Source: Lysobacteraceae bacterium SCN 69-320
GTDB lineage: Bacteria > Pseudomonadota > Gammaproteobacteria > Xanthomonadales > Rhodanobacteraceae
Assembly: GCA_001725155.1 (NCBI GenBank)
Contig: MEFP01000012.1
Location: 496,001-560,000 of the forward strand
DNA length: 64,000 nucleotides
Reading direction: 5' to 3'
In this document: positions 56,513-64,000 of the stretch, piece after piece
Position numbering within the stretch: the stretch's first letter is position 1
How the letters are laid out: each line of letters starts with the position of its first letter
Made by a program: the position numbers and the translations under genes
Notes under the pieces: generated by a model
What the model was told of the DNA's origin: nothing
Database searches by the model: none
Seen by the model: only the letters and a program-made list of their open reading frames with translations

Positions 56513-56569
56513 CGGCGCGCCGCCGTCCGCGCTGGCCGTAGCTCCCCTCGCCTGCTACCATCCGCGCGC

Positions 56570-56747
56570 TTTCAGGTGGCGCGACGACGTTTGGACGTCC
56601 GAACGCTTAAACGGGAAGCCGGTGGAAATCCCGGCACTGCCCCCGCAACGGTGAACGAGTCAAACGCGGCATTACGCCACTGGATCAATCCGGGAAGGCG
56701 CCGCGCCGGAGCAAGCCTCCACTCGTGAGTCCGGAGACCGGCCTGCA
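56570..56747 (+). promoter_or_regulatory. Cobalamin riboswitch
   Basis: The conserved AdoCbl riboswitch pieces appear in order: GGGAAGCCGGTGGAAATCC, CACTGCCCCCGCAACGGTGA, a GCCACTGG stem, GGGAAGGCG, and the B12-box region GAGTCCGGAGACCGGCCTGC. It precedes btuB by about 155 bases. On binding cobalamin it should block expression of btuB and the salvage genes that follow. The B12 box carries an extended CCGG core compared with the common form, but pairing is kept. Confidence 0.95.
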
Positions 56748-56901
56748 GCGGTCAGGCTCGCGCAGCGAGCCGGGCCTGGTGGTGTCGCGGAGGGCGACGC
56801 CGCGGCGAACGTGCCCCCGGCCCCGTCTCCGCTGCCGTCATCCTTCCGCGAACCGGACTTTTCGCCGTTTCGACCGCGCGGGTGAGCGCGGAGGAAGACT
56901 C

Positions 56902-58749
56902 ATGCATCGCAAAACGCTTTGCGCGGCCATTGCCGCGCTCCTGACCCTGCCCGCCGCGCCGCTGCTGGCCGAACCCGCGCCGCATACGCCAGAGCTCGAC
57001 GACATCATCGTCACGGCCACGCGCACCGCCGTGACCGTCGACGACAGCCTCGCGCCGGTCAACGTGATCACGCGCGCGGACATCGAGCGCCTGCAGGCGC
57101 GTTCCCTGCTCGACCTGCTGCGCGGCCTGCCCGGCGTGTCGCTGTCGAGCAACGGCGGTCCCGGCAAGCAGACGTCGGTCTTCCTGCGCGGCACCGAATC
57201 GGATCATCTGCTCGTGCTGATCGACGGCGTGCGCATCGGCTCGGCCACGGCCGGCAGCGCCGCGTTCCAGGATCTGCCGGTCGAGCAGATCGAACGCATC
57301 GAGATCGTGCGCGGCCCGCGTTCGAGCCTGTACGGCTCCGAAGCGATCGGCGGCGTGATCCAGATCTTCACGCGCCGCGGCCACGGCCAGGGCCTGCTGC
57401 CGCAGTTCAGCGCGACCCTGGGCAGCCACGACACGCGCGAGGCGACCGCGGGCCTGAGCCTCAACGGCGAACAGGGCTGGCTGTCGGCCAACCTCGCCCA
57501 CAGCGACACCGACGGATTCAATTCCTGCCGGCCGAACCTCAGCGCCGGCTGCTTCACCAACGAGCCCGACGCCGATCCTTATCGCAACTCCTCGCTGACC
57601 CTGAGCGGCGGCTGGCGCTTCGACGAGGCCGGCGATCTGCAGGCCAATGCGCTGCGTGCCGAAGGCCGCAACACCTACGACGGCAGCTTCGTCGACGAAT
57701 CGATCTACCGCCAGCAGGTCGTCGGCGGCAAGCTGCGCCTGCAGGCGCACGAGCGTCTCGTCGTCAGCCTCGGCGCCGGTCGCAGCGAAGACTACTCGGA
57801 CAACTATAAGAGCGGCCTCTTCCAGAGCAAGTTCGACACGCGCCGCGACAGCTACACCCTGCAGGGCGACATCGGCCTCGGCACCGCGCAGCTGCTCAGC
57901 GTCGGCGTGGACTACCTCGACGACCGCGTCGACAGCACGACGCCGTACGACGAGCGCTCGCGCGACGTGACCGGCGTGTTCGCGCAGTACCAGGGCAAGT
58001 TCGGCGCCCACGACGTGCAGGCCAGCCTGCGCAACGACGACAACGAGCAGTTCGGCACGCACGGCACCGGCAGTCTGGCCTGGGGCTATGCGCTCAACAA
58101 CGATCTGCGTCTGGTCGCGAGCTACGGCACCGCGTTCAAGGCGCCGACCTTCAACGAGCTGTACTTCCCGGGCTTCGGCAATGCCGCGCTCAAGCCCGAG
58201 GAGTCGCGCAGCGTCGAAGTCGGCCTGCGCGGGCGCGCCGGCGAAGGCCGCTGGGAACTGCATGCGTTCCAGACCCGGGTCGACGATCTGATCGCCTACG
58301 ACGCGGCGACGTTCGCGCCCGGCAACATCGACGAAGCGCGGATCCGCGGCATCGAGGCCAGCTGGGCGACGACCCTGGCCGGCTGGAACGTCGACAGCAG
58401 CGTGACCCTGCTCGATCCGAAGAACGACGGCGCCTCGGCCAACCACGGCAACGAGCTGCCGCGCCGCGGACGCCAGTCGGCGCGCATCGATCTGGACCGC
58501 CGTTTCGGTGCATTCGGCCTCGGCGCGACCGTGAACGCCCAGGGCAGGCGCTACGACGATCTGGCCAACCGCACGCGGCTGGGCGGCTACAGCACGCTGG
58601 ATCTGCGCGCCGACTACGCGCTGTCGCCGGACTGGCTGCTGCAGGCCCGCGTCGAAAACGTCGCCGATCACGACTACGAGACCGCCGCGTTCTACAATCA
58701 GCCCGGTCGCAGCTATTTCGTCACCCTGCGCTACCGTCCGGCCCGCTGA
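56902..58749 (+). CDS. btuB: TonB-dependent vitamin B12 receptor BtuB
   Basis: A 615-residue outer-membrane receptor. Signal peptide ends LPAAPLLAEP. The TonB box is LDDIIVTATR near residues 32-41. The plug domain has LLDLLRGLPGVSL, VFLRGTESDHLLVLIDGVRIG and IEIVRGPRSSLYGSEAIGGVI. The barrel follows and ends YFVTLRYRPAR near the C-terminus, slightly past the usual terminal aromatic residue. It imports corrinoids. Control is by the riboswitch upstream. GGAGGAAG precedes the ATG by six bases. The gene leads the B12 operon. Confidence 0.94.
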   Translation: MHRKTLCAAIAALLTLPAAPLLAEPAPHTPELDDIIVTATRTAVTVDDSLAPVNVITRADIERLQARSLLDLLRGLPGVSLSSNGGPGKQTSVFLRGTESDHLLVLIDGVRIGSATAGSAAFQDLPVEQIERIEIVRGPRSSLYGSEAIGGVIQIFTRRGHGQGLLPQFSATLGSHDTREATAGLSLNGEQGWLSANLAHSDTDGFNSCRPNLSAGCFTNEPDADPYRNSSLTLSGGWRFDEAGDLQANALRAEGRNTYDGSFVDESIYRQQVVGGKLRLQAHERLVVSLGAGRSEDYSDNYKSGLFQSKFDTRRDSYTLQGDIGLGTAQLLSVGVDYLDDRVDSTTPYDERSRDVTGVFAQYQGKFGAHDVQASLRNDDNEQFGTHGTGSLAWGYALNNDLRLVASYGTAFKAPTFNELYFPGFGNAALKPEESRSVEVGLRGRAGEGRWELHAFQTRVDDLIAYDAATFAPGNIDEARIRGIEASWATTLAGWNVDSSVTLLDPKNDGASANHGNELPRRGRQSARIDLDRRFGAFGLGATVNAQGRRYDDLANRTRLGGYSTLDLRADYALSPDWLLQARVENVADHDYETAAFYNQPGRSYFVTLRYRPAR

Positions 58750-58820: not shown

Positions 58821-59402
58821 ATGAAGTTCCTGCCCACCGCCAAGCAATCGCTGATCCTGTTCGCCCTGATGGCACTGATGCTGGTGACGCGCTATCACCA
58901 CCTCGGCAGCACCCTGCATCTGCCGGATGCGTCGATGGCGATCTTCTTCGTCGCGGGCTTCTATCTGGCGGGCACGGTCGCGCTGCCACTGCTGCTGCTC
59001 GAGGCGGGCCTCATCGACTACATCGCGATCAGCCTGGCCGGCGTCAGCGACTTCTGCGTGACCCCGGCCTACTCGATGCTCGTGGTCGCCTACGGCGTGC
59101 TCTGGTACGGCGGTGCGTTGTACGCGAAGAAACTGTACAAGCCGCAGCCGTCGACCCTGCTGACGGCCGGCCTCGTCGCGCTGGCCAGCTGCCTCGTCTC
59201 CTTCCTCGTCTCCAACGGCTCGTTCTACTGGATGGGCGGCCGCGTCGCCGACACCGGCCTGGCCGACTACGTGCAGAACTTCCTGCGCTACATGCCGAGC
59301 TTCGTCAGCGTCGCGATGGCCTACATCGCCGTGTTCGGCCTGGCCCATGCGATCGGCGTGATCGCGCTCGGCGAACGCCACGCCGGGGCCAGGCAGGCGT
59401 GA
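58821..59402 (+). CDS. Riboswitch-controlled membrane protein of unknown function
   Basis: A 193-residue integral membrane protein with five to six helices (about residues 9-24, 38-71, 84-104, 115-133 and 155-182). It has TRYHHLGSTLHLPDASMAIFF near the start, with a His pair, and DFCVTPAYSMLVVAYG in the third helix. The size and six-helix-like topology resemble S components of energy-coupling-factor transporters, but no sequence signature for a known B12 or cobalt transporter is recognised. It stands between btuB and cobO in the riboswitch-controlled operon, and overlaps cobO by four bases. A role in moving corrinoid, cobalt or a DMB precursor across the inner membrane is likely but unproven. 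Confidence 0.7.
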   Translation: MKFLPTAKQSLILFALMALMLVTRYHHLGSTLHLPDASMAIFFVAGFYLAGTVALPLLLLEAGLIDYIAISLAGVSDFCVTPAYSMLVVAYGVLWYGGALYAKKLYKPQPSTLLTAGLVALASCLVSFLVSNGSFYWMGGRVADTGLADYVQNFLRYMPSFVSVAMAYIAVFGLAHAIGVIALGERHAGARQA

Positions 59403-60016
59403 GCGACGCCGAAGACGCCGCGCTGGCGCAACGCCACCGCGAACGCATGCAGCGCAAGAAAGCCGTCGTCGACGCGGGCATTGCCCGCGCGACGATCGAA
59501 CGCGGCGTCGTCGTGGTCACGACGGGCAACGGCAAGGGCAAGAGTTCCTCGGGCTTCGGCATGGTCGCGCGCGCGCTGGGCCACGGCCTGCGCGTGGGTG
59601 TCGTGCAGTTCATCAAGGGCAGCTTCGCCACCGGCGAGGAAGCGTTTTTCCGGCGCTTCCCCGACGAGGTCAGCTACCACGTCATGGGCGAAGGCTTCAC
59701 CTGGGAAACCCAGGACCGCGAACGCGATCTGCGCGCCGCGGCCGCGGCCTGGGACAAGGCCGCCGCGATGCTGGCCGACGCCGACGTCGATCTCGTGCTG
59801 CTGGACGAGCTCAACATCGCGCTGAAATACCAGTACGTCGATCTCGCCGCCGTGCTCGCCGCGCTCGCGGCGCGTCCGCCGCTGCAGCACGTCGTCATCA
59901 CCGGCCGCGCCGCGCCGCCGGCGCTGATCGAGGCCGCCGACACGGTCACCGAGATGAACGTCGTCAAGCACGCCTACGAAGCCGGCATCAAGGCGCAGAA
60001 AGGCATCGAGCTGTAA
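59399..60016 (+). CDS. cobO: Cob(I)yrinic acid a,c-diamide adenosyltransferase
   Basis: A 205-residue CobO/BtuR enzyme starting at GTG 59399. VVVVTTGNGKGKSSSGFG is the unusual P-loop of the family. VGVVQFIKGSFATGEE and WETQDRERDLRAA follow, with LVLLDELNIALKYQY as the Walker B-like block and HVVITGRAAPPALIEAAD near the end. It adds the adenosyl group to cob(I)alamin or cobinamide. The start overlaps the stop of the membrane-protein gene (GTGA). Confidence 0.95.
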   Translation: MSDAEDAALAQRHRERMQRKKAVVDAGIARATIERGVVVVTTGNGKGKSSSGFGMVARALGHGLRVGVVQFIKGSFATGEEAFFRRFPDEVSYHVMGEGFTWETQDRERDLRAAAAAWDKAAAMLADADVDLVLLDELNIALKYQYVDLAAVLAALAARPPLQHVVITGRAAPPALIEAADTVTEMNVVKHAYEAGIKAQKGIEL

Positions 60017-60037: not shown

Positions 60038-60946
60038 ATGCCCGCACTGCTGCTCGGACTGTTGCTGGACCATCTGCTCGGCGAACCGCGGCGCTGGCAC
60101 CCGCTGGTCGGCTTCGGCCGCCTGGCCAGAACCATCGAAACACGCCTGCATCGCCAGAGCCGCCTCGCCGGCGCGACTGCGTTGATACTCGCAGCCGCGC
60201 CGTTCGTGCTGCTCGCGGACTGGCTGCAGTCGCTGCCGTTCTACGGTCCGTTCTTCGCCGCGTTCGCGCTGTATCTGGCCCTGGGCCTGCGCAGTCTGCG
60301 CGAGCACGCCGGACCGATCGCCGCTGCGCTGGATCACGGCCAACTCGATACGGCGCGCGCCGCAGTCGGCCGCATCGTCAGCCGCGACACGGCCGCGCTC
60401 GATGCGACGCAGGTCGCCACGGCGGCGACCGAGTCGGTGCTGGAGAACGGCAACGACGCCGTGTTCGGCGCCCTGTTCTGGTTCGCCGTTGCCGGCGCGC
60501 CCGGCGTCGTCGCCTACCGTCTCGTCAACACGCTGGATGCGATGTGGGGCTATCGCAACGAACGCTACGAACACTTCGGCTGGGCTGCGGCGCGGCTCGA
60601 CGATCTGCTGAACCTCGTGCCGGCGCGACTGACTGCCCTGTCCTATGCGCTGGTCGGCCGCTTCACCACGGCGATGGCGTGCTGGCGACGGCAGGCGCCG
60701 CAGTGGGACAGTCCGAACGCCGGGCCGGTCATGGCCGCCGGCGCCGGCGCGCTCGGCGTCCGGCTCGGCGGTGCCGCCCCCTACGACGGCATCTGGCACG
60801 AACGGCCCGTGCTGGGCTCGGGCGACGCGCCCGACGCCGGGGCGATCCGCCGCGCGATCCGGCTGGTCCATTGCGCGGTCGCACTGTGGCTTGCGGCCCT
60901 GTTGCTGATTGACCTCGCCCGCCTGCGCCTGATCGAGGGATTCTGA
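60038..60946 (+). CDS. cbiB: Adenosylcobinamide-phosphate synthase
   Basis: A 302-residue membrane protein (CbiB/CobD). [20 protein letters not shown] at the N-terminus, [33 protein letters not shown], and [15 protein letters not shown] are conserved blocks. The C-terminal part has [19 protein letters not shown]. It attaches aminopropanol phosphate to cobyric acid. GGAG precedes the ATG. Synonym cobD in the aerobic pathway. Confidence 0.93.
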
Positions 60947-61013
60947 ATGCCGCCGCATGTTCCTCGATCGAATCCGCCGTCGTCGGTGCCCTGCGTCGCA
61001 GCGGAGCTGTCCG

Positions 61014-63773
61014 GTGCTTGAGCACGGCGGTCGCCTGCAGCGCGCCGCGGCGCAGTACGGCATACCGGTTGCGCGGTGGCTGGATCTGTCGACCGGCATC
61101 AACCCGCGGGGATGGCCGCTGCCGCCGATACCGCGCGAGGTCTGGACGCGGCTGCCCGAGGACGAGGACGGACTCGAAGCGGCCGCCTGCGACTACTACG
61201 GCTGCCGTGCGCTGCTGCCGACGGCGGGAACGCAGGCCGCGATACAGACGCTGCCAGGCTTGCGCGGCCCCTCGCGCGTCGCCGTGCCCGCCCCGGCGTA
61301 TGCCGAGCACGCGCACGCGTGGCGGCGCGCCGGCCACGACGTCGTCGCGACGGAGGCGGCGTCGCTGATCTCCGGCGAGGTCGATGCGGACGTCGCCGTG
61401 ATCGTCAATCCGAACAATCCGACCGGCGCACGCTTCGGCCTCGACGCGCTGCTCGCGCTGCATGCGCGCCTCGCTGCGCGCGGCGGCTGGCTCGTCGTCG
61501 ACGAGGCCTTCATCGACATGACCCCCGAATGCAGTCTCGCCGCGCATACGGGCCGCGCAGGTCTCGTCGTGCTGCGCTCGCCCGGAAAGTTCTTCGGCCT
61601 GGCCGGCGCGCGCGCGGGTTTCGTCCTCGCCGCAGAGCCGCTGCTCGCGGGGCTGCGCGAACGGCTGGGCCCCTGGACCGTCGCCGCGCCGACGCGCTGG
61701 CTGTTGCAGCGCGCATTCGCCGATCGCGACTGGCAGACCGCCGCGCGCGCGTCGCTCGCCGCGGACGGCCTGCGCCTGCGCCGCCTGCTCGAACAGCATG
61801 GCCTGTCCGGGAGCTGCGGAACGGATCTGTTCCAATGGATACAAATTCCCAATGCATCGCGGTGGCACGACGCGCTCGCGCGCGAGGCCGTGCTGACGCG
61901 CCGCTTCGACGCACCAGCCAGCCTGCGTTTCGGTCTGCCGGGCGACGAGGCGGCGTGGCAGCGGCTCGAGGCGGCGCTTGCGCAGGTGACCGCGGGACAC
62001 GCATCGACGGCGCACAGAACCCCATCCCCACCCAACCCTCCCCTTGAAGGGGAGGGCTTCCAGGCACCCTTCTCCTCCCTTGAAACGGAGGGCTTCCAGG
62101 CACCTCTCTCCTCCCTAGAACGGGAGGGCTCCCAGGCACCCTTCTCCTGGAGAGAGGAACCGGCCGACAAACCCTCCCCTTCAAGGGGAGGGCATGGGAG
62201 GGGATGGGTTTCCCCCGCAACGCCGACCGCAACGCCCACCGCAGCTCCCGCGGCAACTCCGACCGCCACCCCGACAGCAACGCCCGAACGCCGCGCCGGC
62301 GTGCTCATGGTCCAGGGCACGACCTCCGATGCCGGCAAGAGCACGCTCGTCGCCGGCCTGTGCCGCTGGCTGCATCGCTGCGGCGTCGCCGTCGCGCCGT
62401 TCAAGCCGCAGAACATGGCCCTGAACTCGGCCGTGACCGTCGATGGCGGCGAGATCGGCCGCGCCCAGGCCCTGCAGGCCCAGGCCGCGGGGCTGGAACC
62501 GCATACCGACTTCAATCCGATCCTGCTCAAGCCCGACAGCGATCTCGGCGCCCAGGTCATCGTGCATGGCCGCGCGATCGGCAAGCTGCAGGCGGCGCAA
62601 TACCACGACTACAAGCGGATCGCGATGGACGCGGTGCTGGCCTCGCACGCGCGTCTCGTCGAACGCCATGCCGCCGTCGTCGTCGAAGGCGCCGGCAGTC
62701 CGGCGGAAATCAATCTGCGCGCCAATGACATCGCCAACATGGGCTATGCGGAAGCCGTCGACTGTCCGGTGATCCTGATCGCCGACATCGACCGCGGCGG
62801 CGTGTTCGCCCATCTCGTGGGCACGCTCGCGCTGCTCTCGCCGAGCGAGCAGGCGCGCGTGCGCGGGTTCGTCATCAACCGCTTCCGCGGCGACCTGGCC
62901 CTGCTGCAGCCGGGCCTGGACTGGCTCGAACGCGAGACCGGCAAACCCGTGCTCGGCGTGCTGCCCTACCTGCACGGCCTGGATCTCGACGCCGAAGACG
63001 CGCTGCCGCGCGAAACCGGCCGCGACGCCGCCTTGCGCGTGGTCGTGCCGGCGCTGCCGCGAATCAGCAACCACACGGATTTCGACGCATTGCGCCTGCA
63101 TCCGTCCGTGGACTTGCGCTATGTCGGTCCGGGCCAGACGCCGCCCGCCGCCGATCTCATCGTACTGCCCGGCTCCAAGTCGGTGCGCGCCGACCTGGCC
63201 TGGCTGCGCGGCAACGGCTGGGAAGCGGCGCTGCAGACCCATCTGCGCTACGGCGGAAAACTGCTCGGCATCTGCGGCGGACTGCAGATGCTTGGCCACG
63301 CCATCCACGATCCGCACGGCATCGAAGGTACGGCCGGCAGCAGCGCCGGCTTCGGCCTGCTCGATCTGCAGACCACCCTGGAACCCGACAAGCAGCTGCG
63401 CCGCGTACACGGCGAGCTGCGCCTGGCCGGCACGGCGGCCGCAGTCGACGGCTACGAGATCCATTGCGGCGTCAGTGCCGGCGCGGCGCTCACGCGGCCG
63501 CTGCTGCGGCTAGCCGACGGCCGCGCCGACGGTGCGCTGTCGGCCGACGGACGCGTCGCCGCGACCTATGTGCATGGCCTGTTCGACACGGCCGCGGCCT
63601 GCGCGGCGCTGCTGCGCTGGGCCGGCCTGGCCGATGCGCAGGCCGTGGACCGTGCCGTCCTGCGCGAACGCGCGCTCGACCGTCTGGCCGACGCGATCGA
63701 ACAGCATCTGGACCTCGCCGCACTGCGACGCCTGCTCGACCAGGCGTCTGGAGAAACACCATGCGCACCCTGA
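61014..63773 (+). CDS. cobC-cobQ: Fused threonine-phosphate decarboxylase (CobC) and cobyric acid synthase (CobQ)
   Basis: One uninterrupted frame of 919 codons from GTG 61014 (homology sets this start; ATG 60957 is possible). Residues 1 to about 330 are Cob[37 protein letters not shown] and the PLP lysine in [15 protein letters not shown]. It makes aminopropanol phosphate. Residues 432-919 are Cob[19 protein letters not shown] (P-loop), [13 protein letters not shown], and the glutamine-amidotransferase part with [21 protein letters not shown] (catalytic Cys) and a YVHGLF His. It amidates the corrin side chains. Both halves look complete. Residues 335-399 are encoded by an inverted-repeat element and 400-431 by a Pro/Thr/Ala minisatellite. 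Separate translation of CobQ from GTG 62301 or ATG 62307 is possible, but no good ribosome-binding site precedes them. Confidence 0.8.
62018..62211. repeat. REPIN-like inverted-repeat element with 36-bp tandem units
   Basis: Each end carries a 21-base palindrome (CCCTCCCCTT, one base, AAGGGGAGGG) at 62036-62056 and 62172-62192. They are flanked by CCCATCCCC on the left and GGGGATGGG on the right, so the two ends are inverted copies of each other. Between them three 36-base units begin GGAGGGCT and contain CAGGCACC (from 62051, 62087 and 62123). The whole is open in the cobC-cobQ frame and encodes three 12-residue units that start EGFQAP or EGSQAP. Confidence 0.85.
62220..62285 (+). repeat. 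Degenerate 12-bp minisatellite encoding a Pro/Thr/Ala linker
   Basis: About five units of the pattern ACN CCN ACN GCN, encoding TPTA repeats with APAA variants, directly before the CobQ half. Third codon positions differ between units while the residues stay alike, which suggests the stretch is translated and kept as a flexible linker. Confidence 0.75.
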
Positions 63774-64000
63774 TCCTCGGCGGCGCCCGCTCGGGCAAGA
63801 GCGCGCTGGCCGAACGCCTGGCCGCGACTCACGATGCCGTGCTGTACGTTGCCACCGCTGCCGCCGGCGACGACGAGATGGCCGCGCGCATCCTGCATCA
63901 CCGCGCGCGGCGGCCGGCGCACTGGCGGCTGTGCGAGGCACCGCTGCAGCTGGCCGATACCCTGCGCCGTGAAGCGCATGCGGCGCGCTGCGTCCTCGTC
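63761..64000 (+). CDS. cobU: Adenosylcobinamide kinase/guanylyltransferase, partial
   Basis: The first 80 residues of a CobU/CobP enzyme; the gene runs off the right edge. [18 protein letters not shown] holds the P-loop GGARSGKS, followed by [18 protein letters not shown] and [16 protein letters not shown], all typical. It phosphorylates adenosylcobinamide and adds GMP. The ATG lies inside the end of the cobC-cobQ gene (13-base overlap), with GGAG eight bases upstream, so it is coupled to it. Confidence 0.93.

Follow-up and report, generated by a model that had tools for sequence, protein, structure and literature searches.

A cobC-cobQ fusion gene in Tahibacter that probably predates the palindromic repeat in its linker

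CobC makes aminopropanol phosphate, CobQ makes adenosylcobyric acid, and CbiB joins both. Rickettsia palindromic elements lie in frame inside protein-coding genes. Passages of PMC8123684 agree with these roles of CobC, CobQ, and CbiB and also name BluB/CobT fusions of Actinobacteria, and proteins bearing the Rickettsia palindromic element (RPE) are listed in PMC2635572. Short-overlap gene pairs are enriched for subunits of heteromeric complexes, according to PMC10666635. A known fusion close to the one reported here is CobBC (NF053748), a bifunctional hydrogenobyrinic acid a,c-diamide synthase/CobC. We found no published CobC-CobQ fusion in the titles and abstract starts of the papers listed or in passages of PMC8123684, PMC2700814, PMC3541065, and PMC6461909, a body of literature that mostly leaves out subscription papers.

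The window, that is, the whole stretch of 64,000 nucleotides that we analyzed, is part of contig C12 in a 5.71 Mb genome (G000) of a genus called Tahibacter here. An earlier sequence-only reading had seen a complete CobC, a linker, and a complete CobQ in a single frame without stop, and profile searches bore this out over 919 codons (Table 1). TIGR01140 (CobC/CobD-type threonine-phosphate decarboxylase) matched over profile positions 1-331 of 331 at 350.3 bits (cut-off 290.55), and NF001989 (cobyric acid synthase) over positions 2-479 of 480 at 661.5 bits (cut-off 273). TIGR00313 (CobQ/CbiP) scored 463 against a cut-off of 309.9, and the Pfam matches were Aminotran_1_2, CbiA, AAA_26, and GATase_3. 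With both domains complete and zero in-frame stops between them, the gene encodes a fusion protein. Its longest open form begins at ATG 60957 (60957..63773, + strand, 938 aa, stop at 63771-63773); the CobC-type start is GTG 61014, giving VLEHGGRL where relatives have MLEHGGRL, and is preceded by a Shine-Dalgarno-like site with a duplex energy of -5.8 kcal/mol. The conserved CobC motif lysine, presumably the PLP-binding lysine, is present both in G000 and in T. caeni BUT-6 (G005), and the CobQ half retains the LLGICGG motif, whose cysteine we take to be the amidotransferase cysteine. AlphaFold2 modeled two mostly confident domains (mean pLDDT 82.0, pTM 0.65). The best Foldseek matches of the model were CobC and CobD structures, the nearest solved structures of the CobC half being CobC 9jfb/9jff and Salmonella CobD 1lc5; a structure-sequence search with the fusion protein at 1e-5 returned relatives of the CobC half only. 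The genome held no second copy of comparable score, the next best whole-protein match reaching 38.6 bits.

The fusion gene sits in a cluster that runs from a cobalamin riboswitch through a TonB receptor gene, a gene whose protein has no Pfam match, cobO, cbiB, cobC-cobQ, and cobU to cobT and, last, an alpha-ribazole phosphatase-like gene (132.5 against a cut-off of 162.9). The start of cobU and the 3' end of cobQ overlap by 13 nt (63761-63773). TP_methylase (PF00590), the single family on which we base this point, gave three matches in the G000 genome and was positive in 14 of 14 control genomes, which suggests that the corrin ring may not be synthesized here and hence that late precursors would be salvaged.

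Table 1. Positions of the fusion gene, its parts, and its neighbors in the window
Feature	Position	Strand	Basis and remarks
Cobalamin riboswitch heading the gene cluster	56557..56760	+	RF00174, 98.7 bits
TonB-dependent receptor, BtuB-like by context	56725..58749	+	PF00593, PF07715
cobO/btuR, corrinoid adenosyltransferase	59399..60016	+	PF02572
cbiB (cobD), expected user of both products	60038..60946	+	PF03186; immediately upstream of cobC-cobQ
cobC-cobQ fusion gene	61014..63773	+	919 codons + stop; ORF, profile matches, orthologous fusion in T. caeni
CobC domain, threonine-phosphate decarboxylase, ~326 residues	61014..61991	+	TIGR01140, structures, motif
Linker, ~103 codons	61992..62300	+	pLDDT <50 at residues 335-422 of 919
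Composite palindromic repeat	62018..62210	+	inverted 42-nt arms, 36-nt tandem units between
12-nt tandem units encoding ATPTATPT-like residues	62212..62283	+	tandem-repeat family D1
CobQ domain, adenosylcobyric acid synthase, 490 residues from VLMVQG	62301..63770	+	NF001989, TIGR00313
cobU/cobP start	63761..64000	+	runs past window end

A repeat could mislead assembly; however, the fusion is seen in separate genomes of seven species, and we regard an error of sequencing or assembly, or decay into a pseudogene, as extremely improbable. Between G000 and T. caeni, dN/dS was 0.29 for CobC (326 codons) and 0.20 for CobQ (490 codons); both values lie under 0.3, which together with the intact motifs speaks strongly against a pseudogene. 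The linker gave a dN/dS of 0.48 (dS 1.15) over 71 poorly aligned codons.

The linker consists in part of a dispersed palindromic element, as had been proposed. The arms of the repeat (62018-62059 and 62169-62210) are 79% complementary and enclose three copies of the 36-nt unit, and two exact 21-nt palindromes lie in the linker at 62036 and 62172 (0 in 100 shuffles of the window). Allowing up to three mismatches, the genome contains 103 sites of the 21-nt palindrome and none of its reversed control. At up to two mismatches we counted 93 sites in G000, 52 in G002, 13 in G005, 11 in G003, and 1 in G001, and no sites in G004, G006, G007, G014, G016, or G239, with the reversed control giving 1 in G002 and 1 in G239. 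Many short palindromic copies, also as an inverted pair, make the repeat REP/BIME-like, and one long similar copy lies elsewhere in the genome (C16:65533-65763, 73%). The RNA of 62010-62220 has a predicted folding energy of -124.3 kcal/mol (z -7.05). A hairpin is no general trait of such linkers: 7 of 13 fused linkers fold at z between -0.8 and +1.4; the other six lie between -8.1 and -2.6, and CobC control stretches span -2.6 to +2.4. The linker of G239 bears a repeat and has a z of only -0.4. A 117-codon stretch that includes the CobC tail was stop-free in 40% of 400 dinucleotide shuffles, so the open frame alone is weak proof, and conservation in relatives is the real support.

We also considered repeat copies within other genes. 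About 46 distinct exact palindromes occur in the loci examined, and 13 ORF rows span one with at least 90 codons on each side. A Pfam search of six of these rows returned no match; the remaining seven comprise the fusion, its antisense frame, three rows overlapping searched places (L057, L007, L052), and L045 and L051, which are one place with low GC3. By Pfam on six palindrome-spanning ORF rows, we thus found the repeat in frame in no gene besides the fusion.

CobC and CobQ domains were present in all eight Tahibacter genomes and in one frame in seven (G000-G003 and G005-G007); G004 has two genes with the usual ATGA overlap, and its cobQ begins MTARVLMVQG. The family search gave matches at 1e-30 in 81 of 233 genomes, and ten of the 81 were fused: the seven Tahibacter, G014 (Fulvimonas soli), G016 (Frateuria sp. 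Soil773), and G239. This count combines the open-frame column of the rows listed with a DNA reading of each CobQ frame of at least 750 aa. The order search (32 of 250 genomes matched) added no further fusion by the open-frame column. Three of the 105 genomes matched at 1e-60 in the class search (out of 369) were fused, namely the window's own, G485, and G621; the latter two are one genus of another family, and the G621 contig ends inside cobC. Among the 80 named loci listed, at least four are fused: L083, L084, and L088 (the same as G005, G014, and G016) and L085 (L085:4007-6751), the fused gene of a Nitrosomonadales MAG. Six of the 80 went unjudged, cobC being absent from the same strand of the stretch examined, and genes split across contigs would be missed in all fusion counts unless read like G621.

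Several candidates were rejected as fusions. In G550, G630, G490, G679, and G704 from the class search, cobC was not found nearby or lay on the opposite strand or in another frame, and the long CobQ frames of G117, G112, G107, G146, G135, and G061 from the family search were likewise rejected. At L235 (G704:C7:1668500-1674500), cobQ is broken into two parts read in different frames, through a frameshift or sequencing error. In a plasmid collection (best 20 of 148 matching records), the sole record covering more than 80% of the query (H1) carries two annotated genes.

Trees were built from CobC and CobQ without the linker, first with 78 rows and then as a careful tree of 33 rows. The six fused Tahibacter G000, G001, G002, G003, G005, and G006 formed one clade (support 98/97), the fused G007 was sister to the unfused G004 (99/95), Fulvimonas, G239, and Frateuria formed a fused clade (100/99), and L085 was sister to an unfused Gallionellaceae row (100/99). 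The branches starred on the tree force four changes of fusion state. A single clade of all ten fused Lysobacterales rows was rejected (p-AU 1.4e-7); for the seven fused Tahibacter as one clade, a grouping that we defined only once the first tree was known, p-AU was 0.017. If separate genes are ancestral, the tree would call for at least three fusions. G485/G621 are apparently a further origin, judging from their other family, and the total would be about five independent-looking fusions with G007 counted apart.

Since G004 has separate genes and is sister to the fused G007, the genus needs a second event. This event might be a split: one fusion for the whole genus, later divided into two genes in G004, takes two events, equal to two separate fusions, and would suit a genus in which seven of eight genomes are fused. 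A reversal, however, must rebuild both the ATGA overlap and the MTARVLMVQG start of unfused relatives. In addition, no other linker in the genus is built like that of G007, which is made up of the pattern GGGAGAGGG-N-GGGGTGAGGG in two copies inverted to each other; 109 sites of this pattern occur in the G007 genome, against 0 to 27 in the seven remaining Tahibacter genomes. We consider a single fusion followed by a split possible though rather doubtful and count G007 apart. It is also possible that the fusion shared by the six species is several independent fusions, their linkers being unalignable, at the cost of more events.

We then compared the linkers within the six-species clade. Measured from the same CobC position, they span 117 codons in G000, 90 in G005, 80 in G002, 73 in G001, 67 in G006, and 34 in G003, where only 63 nt separate the ends of CobC and CobQ homology; that these lengths are in frame is no separate evidence, as "fused" was already defined as in frame. 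The window's palindrome is present in the G000 linker and decayed in that of T. caeni (CCCTTCCCTTGAAGGGAGGGG). The window's palindromic element was not seen in the linkers of G001, G002, G003, and G006. Another hairpin in the G001 linker (z -3.4) is the sole hint of a decayed repeat among these four repeat-free linkers, and those of G002 (-0.8), G006 (-0.7), and G003 (0.4) have no hairpin. Because four fused members of the clade are without the repeat, the tree and parsimony indicate that the fusion is most likely older than the repeat in the window's lineage.

The sequence-only reading had assigned the fusion to the palindromic element itself, which on insertion at the junction would have removed the cobC stop. 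In favor of this, the element, 193 nt at 62018-62210 with borders uncertain by some bases, is 1 modulo 3 and would turn frame offset 2 into 0. G007, G014/G239, and L085 likewise have palindromes where the two genes are joined, and a remnant of the repeat is common to the window's genome and T. caeni. However, G001, G002, G003, and G006 are fused without the element and group with these two genomes (98/97), so that creation of the fusion by this element is improbable here and the claim is not upheld. Among the relatives' junctions that were read, for which the same reading had called, none had the window's repeat together with a stop between the genes.

Among 101 distinct pairs of separate genes, a 4-nt overlap is the usual state, with 87 cases, and the frame offset of cobQ is 2 in 96. 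An ATG, GTG, or TTG lies within six codons before the LMVQG motif in 96 of the 101 and within 12 codons in all of them. The six codons before VLMVQG are free of start codons in all ten fused Lysobacterales genes, two of which (G003 and G007) have a GTG further upstream, at nine codons. L085 keeps an ATG four codons before the CobQ motif with a weak Shine-Dalgarno sequence (-3.1), and in G485 and G621 a start codon is absent within 12 codons before the motif. The anti-Shine-Dalgarno energy before cobQ had a median of -5.8 in separate genes, with a random background of -2.4; the 11 fused rows gave 0.1, 1.9, 0.4, -1.7, -2.5, 2.7, -2.5, -3.8, -4.3, 0.1, and -3.3, taken before the nearest start codon or, if absent, before the V of VLMVQG. 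At the cobQ starts of the Pseudomonas loci L144, L116, and L149, we noted a tandem MVQGAT-like N-terminal stretch or extra leader residues.

Because the usual cobQ start codon and Shine-Dalgarno sequence are lost in the window's fused gene, CobQ most likely depends on read-through from CobC, and the obligatory co-translation proposed earlier looks right on these sequence features. The gene could be fused and still yield two working proteins, through cleavage of the linker, which is predicted by AlphaFold2 to be disordered, or through an additional start of CobQ. In the window, GTG 62301 and ATG 62307 persist in frame at the CobQ start, as does the upstream GTG in G003 and G007. However, GTG 62301, to which the energy figure applies, is without a Shine-Dalgarno sequence (+0.1 kcal/mol, against -5.8 at the cobC start), and the close start codon is absent from all ten genes. 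Two separate products are therefore unlikely; the fusion mRNA may be processed at the linker hairpin.

Palindromes are found at other joints too. G014 and G239 have 92 and 54 GGGAGAGGG-N-GGGGTGAGGG sites, respectively, and both carry the pattern in the linker, and G016 has three sites and only a possible remnant in its linker. There are 222 sites in G027 and 60 in G020, both of them unfused, so repeat abundance alone is insufficient for fusion. The L085 linker contains a 17-nt palindrome pair. Palindromes, or a likely remnant, thus occur at three of about five joints, namely those of G007, of Fulvimonas/G239 with Frateuria, and of the Nitrosomonadales MAG. They are of two kinds, one shared by G007 and Fulvimonas/G239 (GGGAGAGGG-GGGGTGAGGG) and another in the MAG, and the window's is a third. 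A palindrome of the right length modulo 3 in the 4-nt overlap would remove the upstream stop and add an open, disordered linker. For G007, Fulvimonas/G239, and the MAG, the repeat is a candidate cause that may equally have arrived later, and its role in the origin of these fusions is a fair hypothesis. We put forward only tentatively the broader idea that the cobC-cobQ junction is a place where palindromic repeats repeatedly build bifunctional enzymes; if true, palindromic repeats would be agents of gene fusion, here of two enzymes whose products act together towards CbiB.

Inserts were also noted away from the joint. The CobQ of L085 has a second insert, between domains, besides its palindromic linker. 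By eye, the unfused cobQ of a betaproteobacterial MAG (L151:4993-6477) has an in-frame palindromic insert between two domains (PLPHAGEG), and the unfused cobC of Luteibacter sp. SG786 (L139:4025-5083) carries some 27 additional residues in frame, encoded by an insert whose inverted repeat looks derived from a REP.

Overall, we hold with reasonable confidence that the window carries a true fused gene, probably for a bifunctional B12 enzyme, in which the fusion came before the repeat and from which CobQ is translated solely as the C-terminal portion. Ancestrally, cobC and cobQ would have shared 4 nt (ATGA/GTGA), cobQ being read at frame offset 2. Before the six Tahibacter diverged, a net junction change of 1 modulo 3 would have abolished the cobC stop and brought the two genes into a common frame. 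Through decay, cobQ would then have lost its start codon and ribosome-binding site, leaving CobQ solely as the C-terminal half of CobC-CobQ, and linker length would have drifted freely between 34 and 117 codons with the frame kept. Later, before the window's genome and T. caeni parted, the composite palindromic repeat would have inserted and lengthened the existing linker in frame.

We infer that the protein is made, kept uncut, and active in both halves, and that a 1:1 supply is of benefit. The two enzymes would probably work independently on a flexible tether, and the likely role of the fusion would be a tethered, equal supply of both CbiB substrates. Its recurrence fits a benefit of equal amounts or proximity and speaks indirectly for joint action of CobC and CobQ, or at least for a gain from equal amounts, before CbiB. 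At this locus, moreover, a gene fusion and its internal repeat can be dated relative to each other, and the relatives supply natural linkers of differing length for one enzyme pair.

Compared with known systems, the fusion resembles CobBC in joining a B12 amidating synthase to a CobC-type PLP enzyme. It differs in that the partner in NF053748 is CobB and the CobC part is C-terminal there; the window's protein scored 80.8 bits against a cut-off of 950, over profile positions 509-789 of 797, with its CobC part only, and lies outside that family. The BluB/CobT fusions named in PMC8123684 likewise join two lower B12-assembly enzymes, but these are other enzymes in another lineage. Unfused cobC-cobQ is of the same type as the 4-nt-overlap pairs with coupled translation in the excerpts of PMC10666635, whereas the window's pair is one chain. 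As in Rickettsia, a dispersed palindrome is read in frame as protein; here, however, in Lysobacterales, the repeat sits where two enzymes have been joined.
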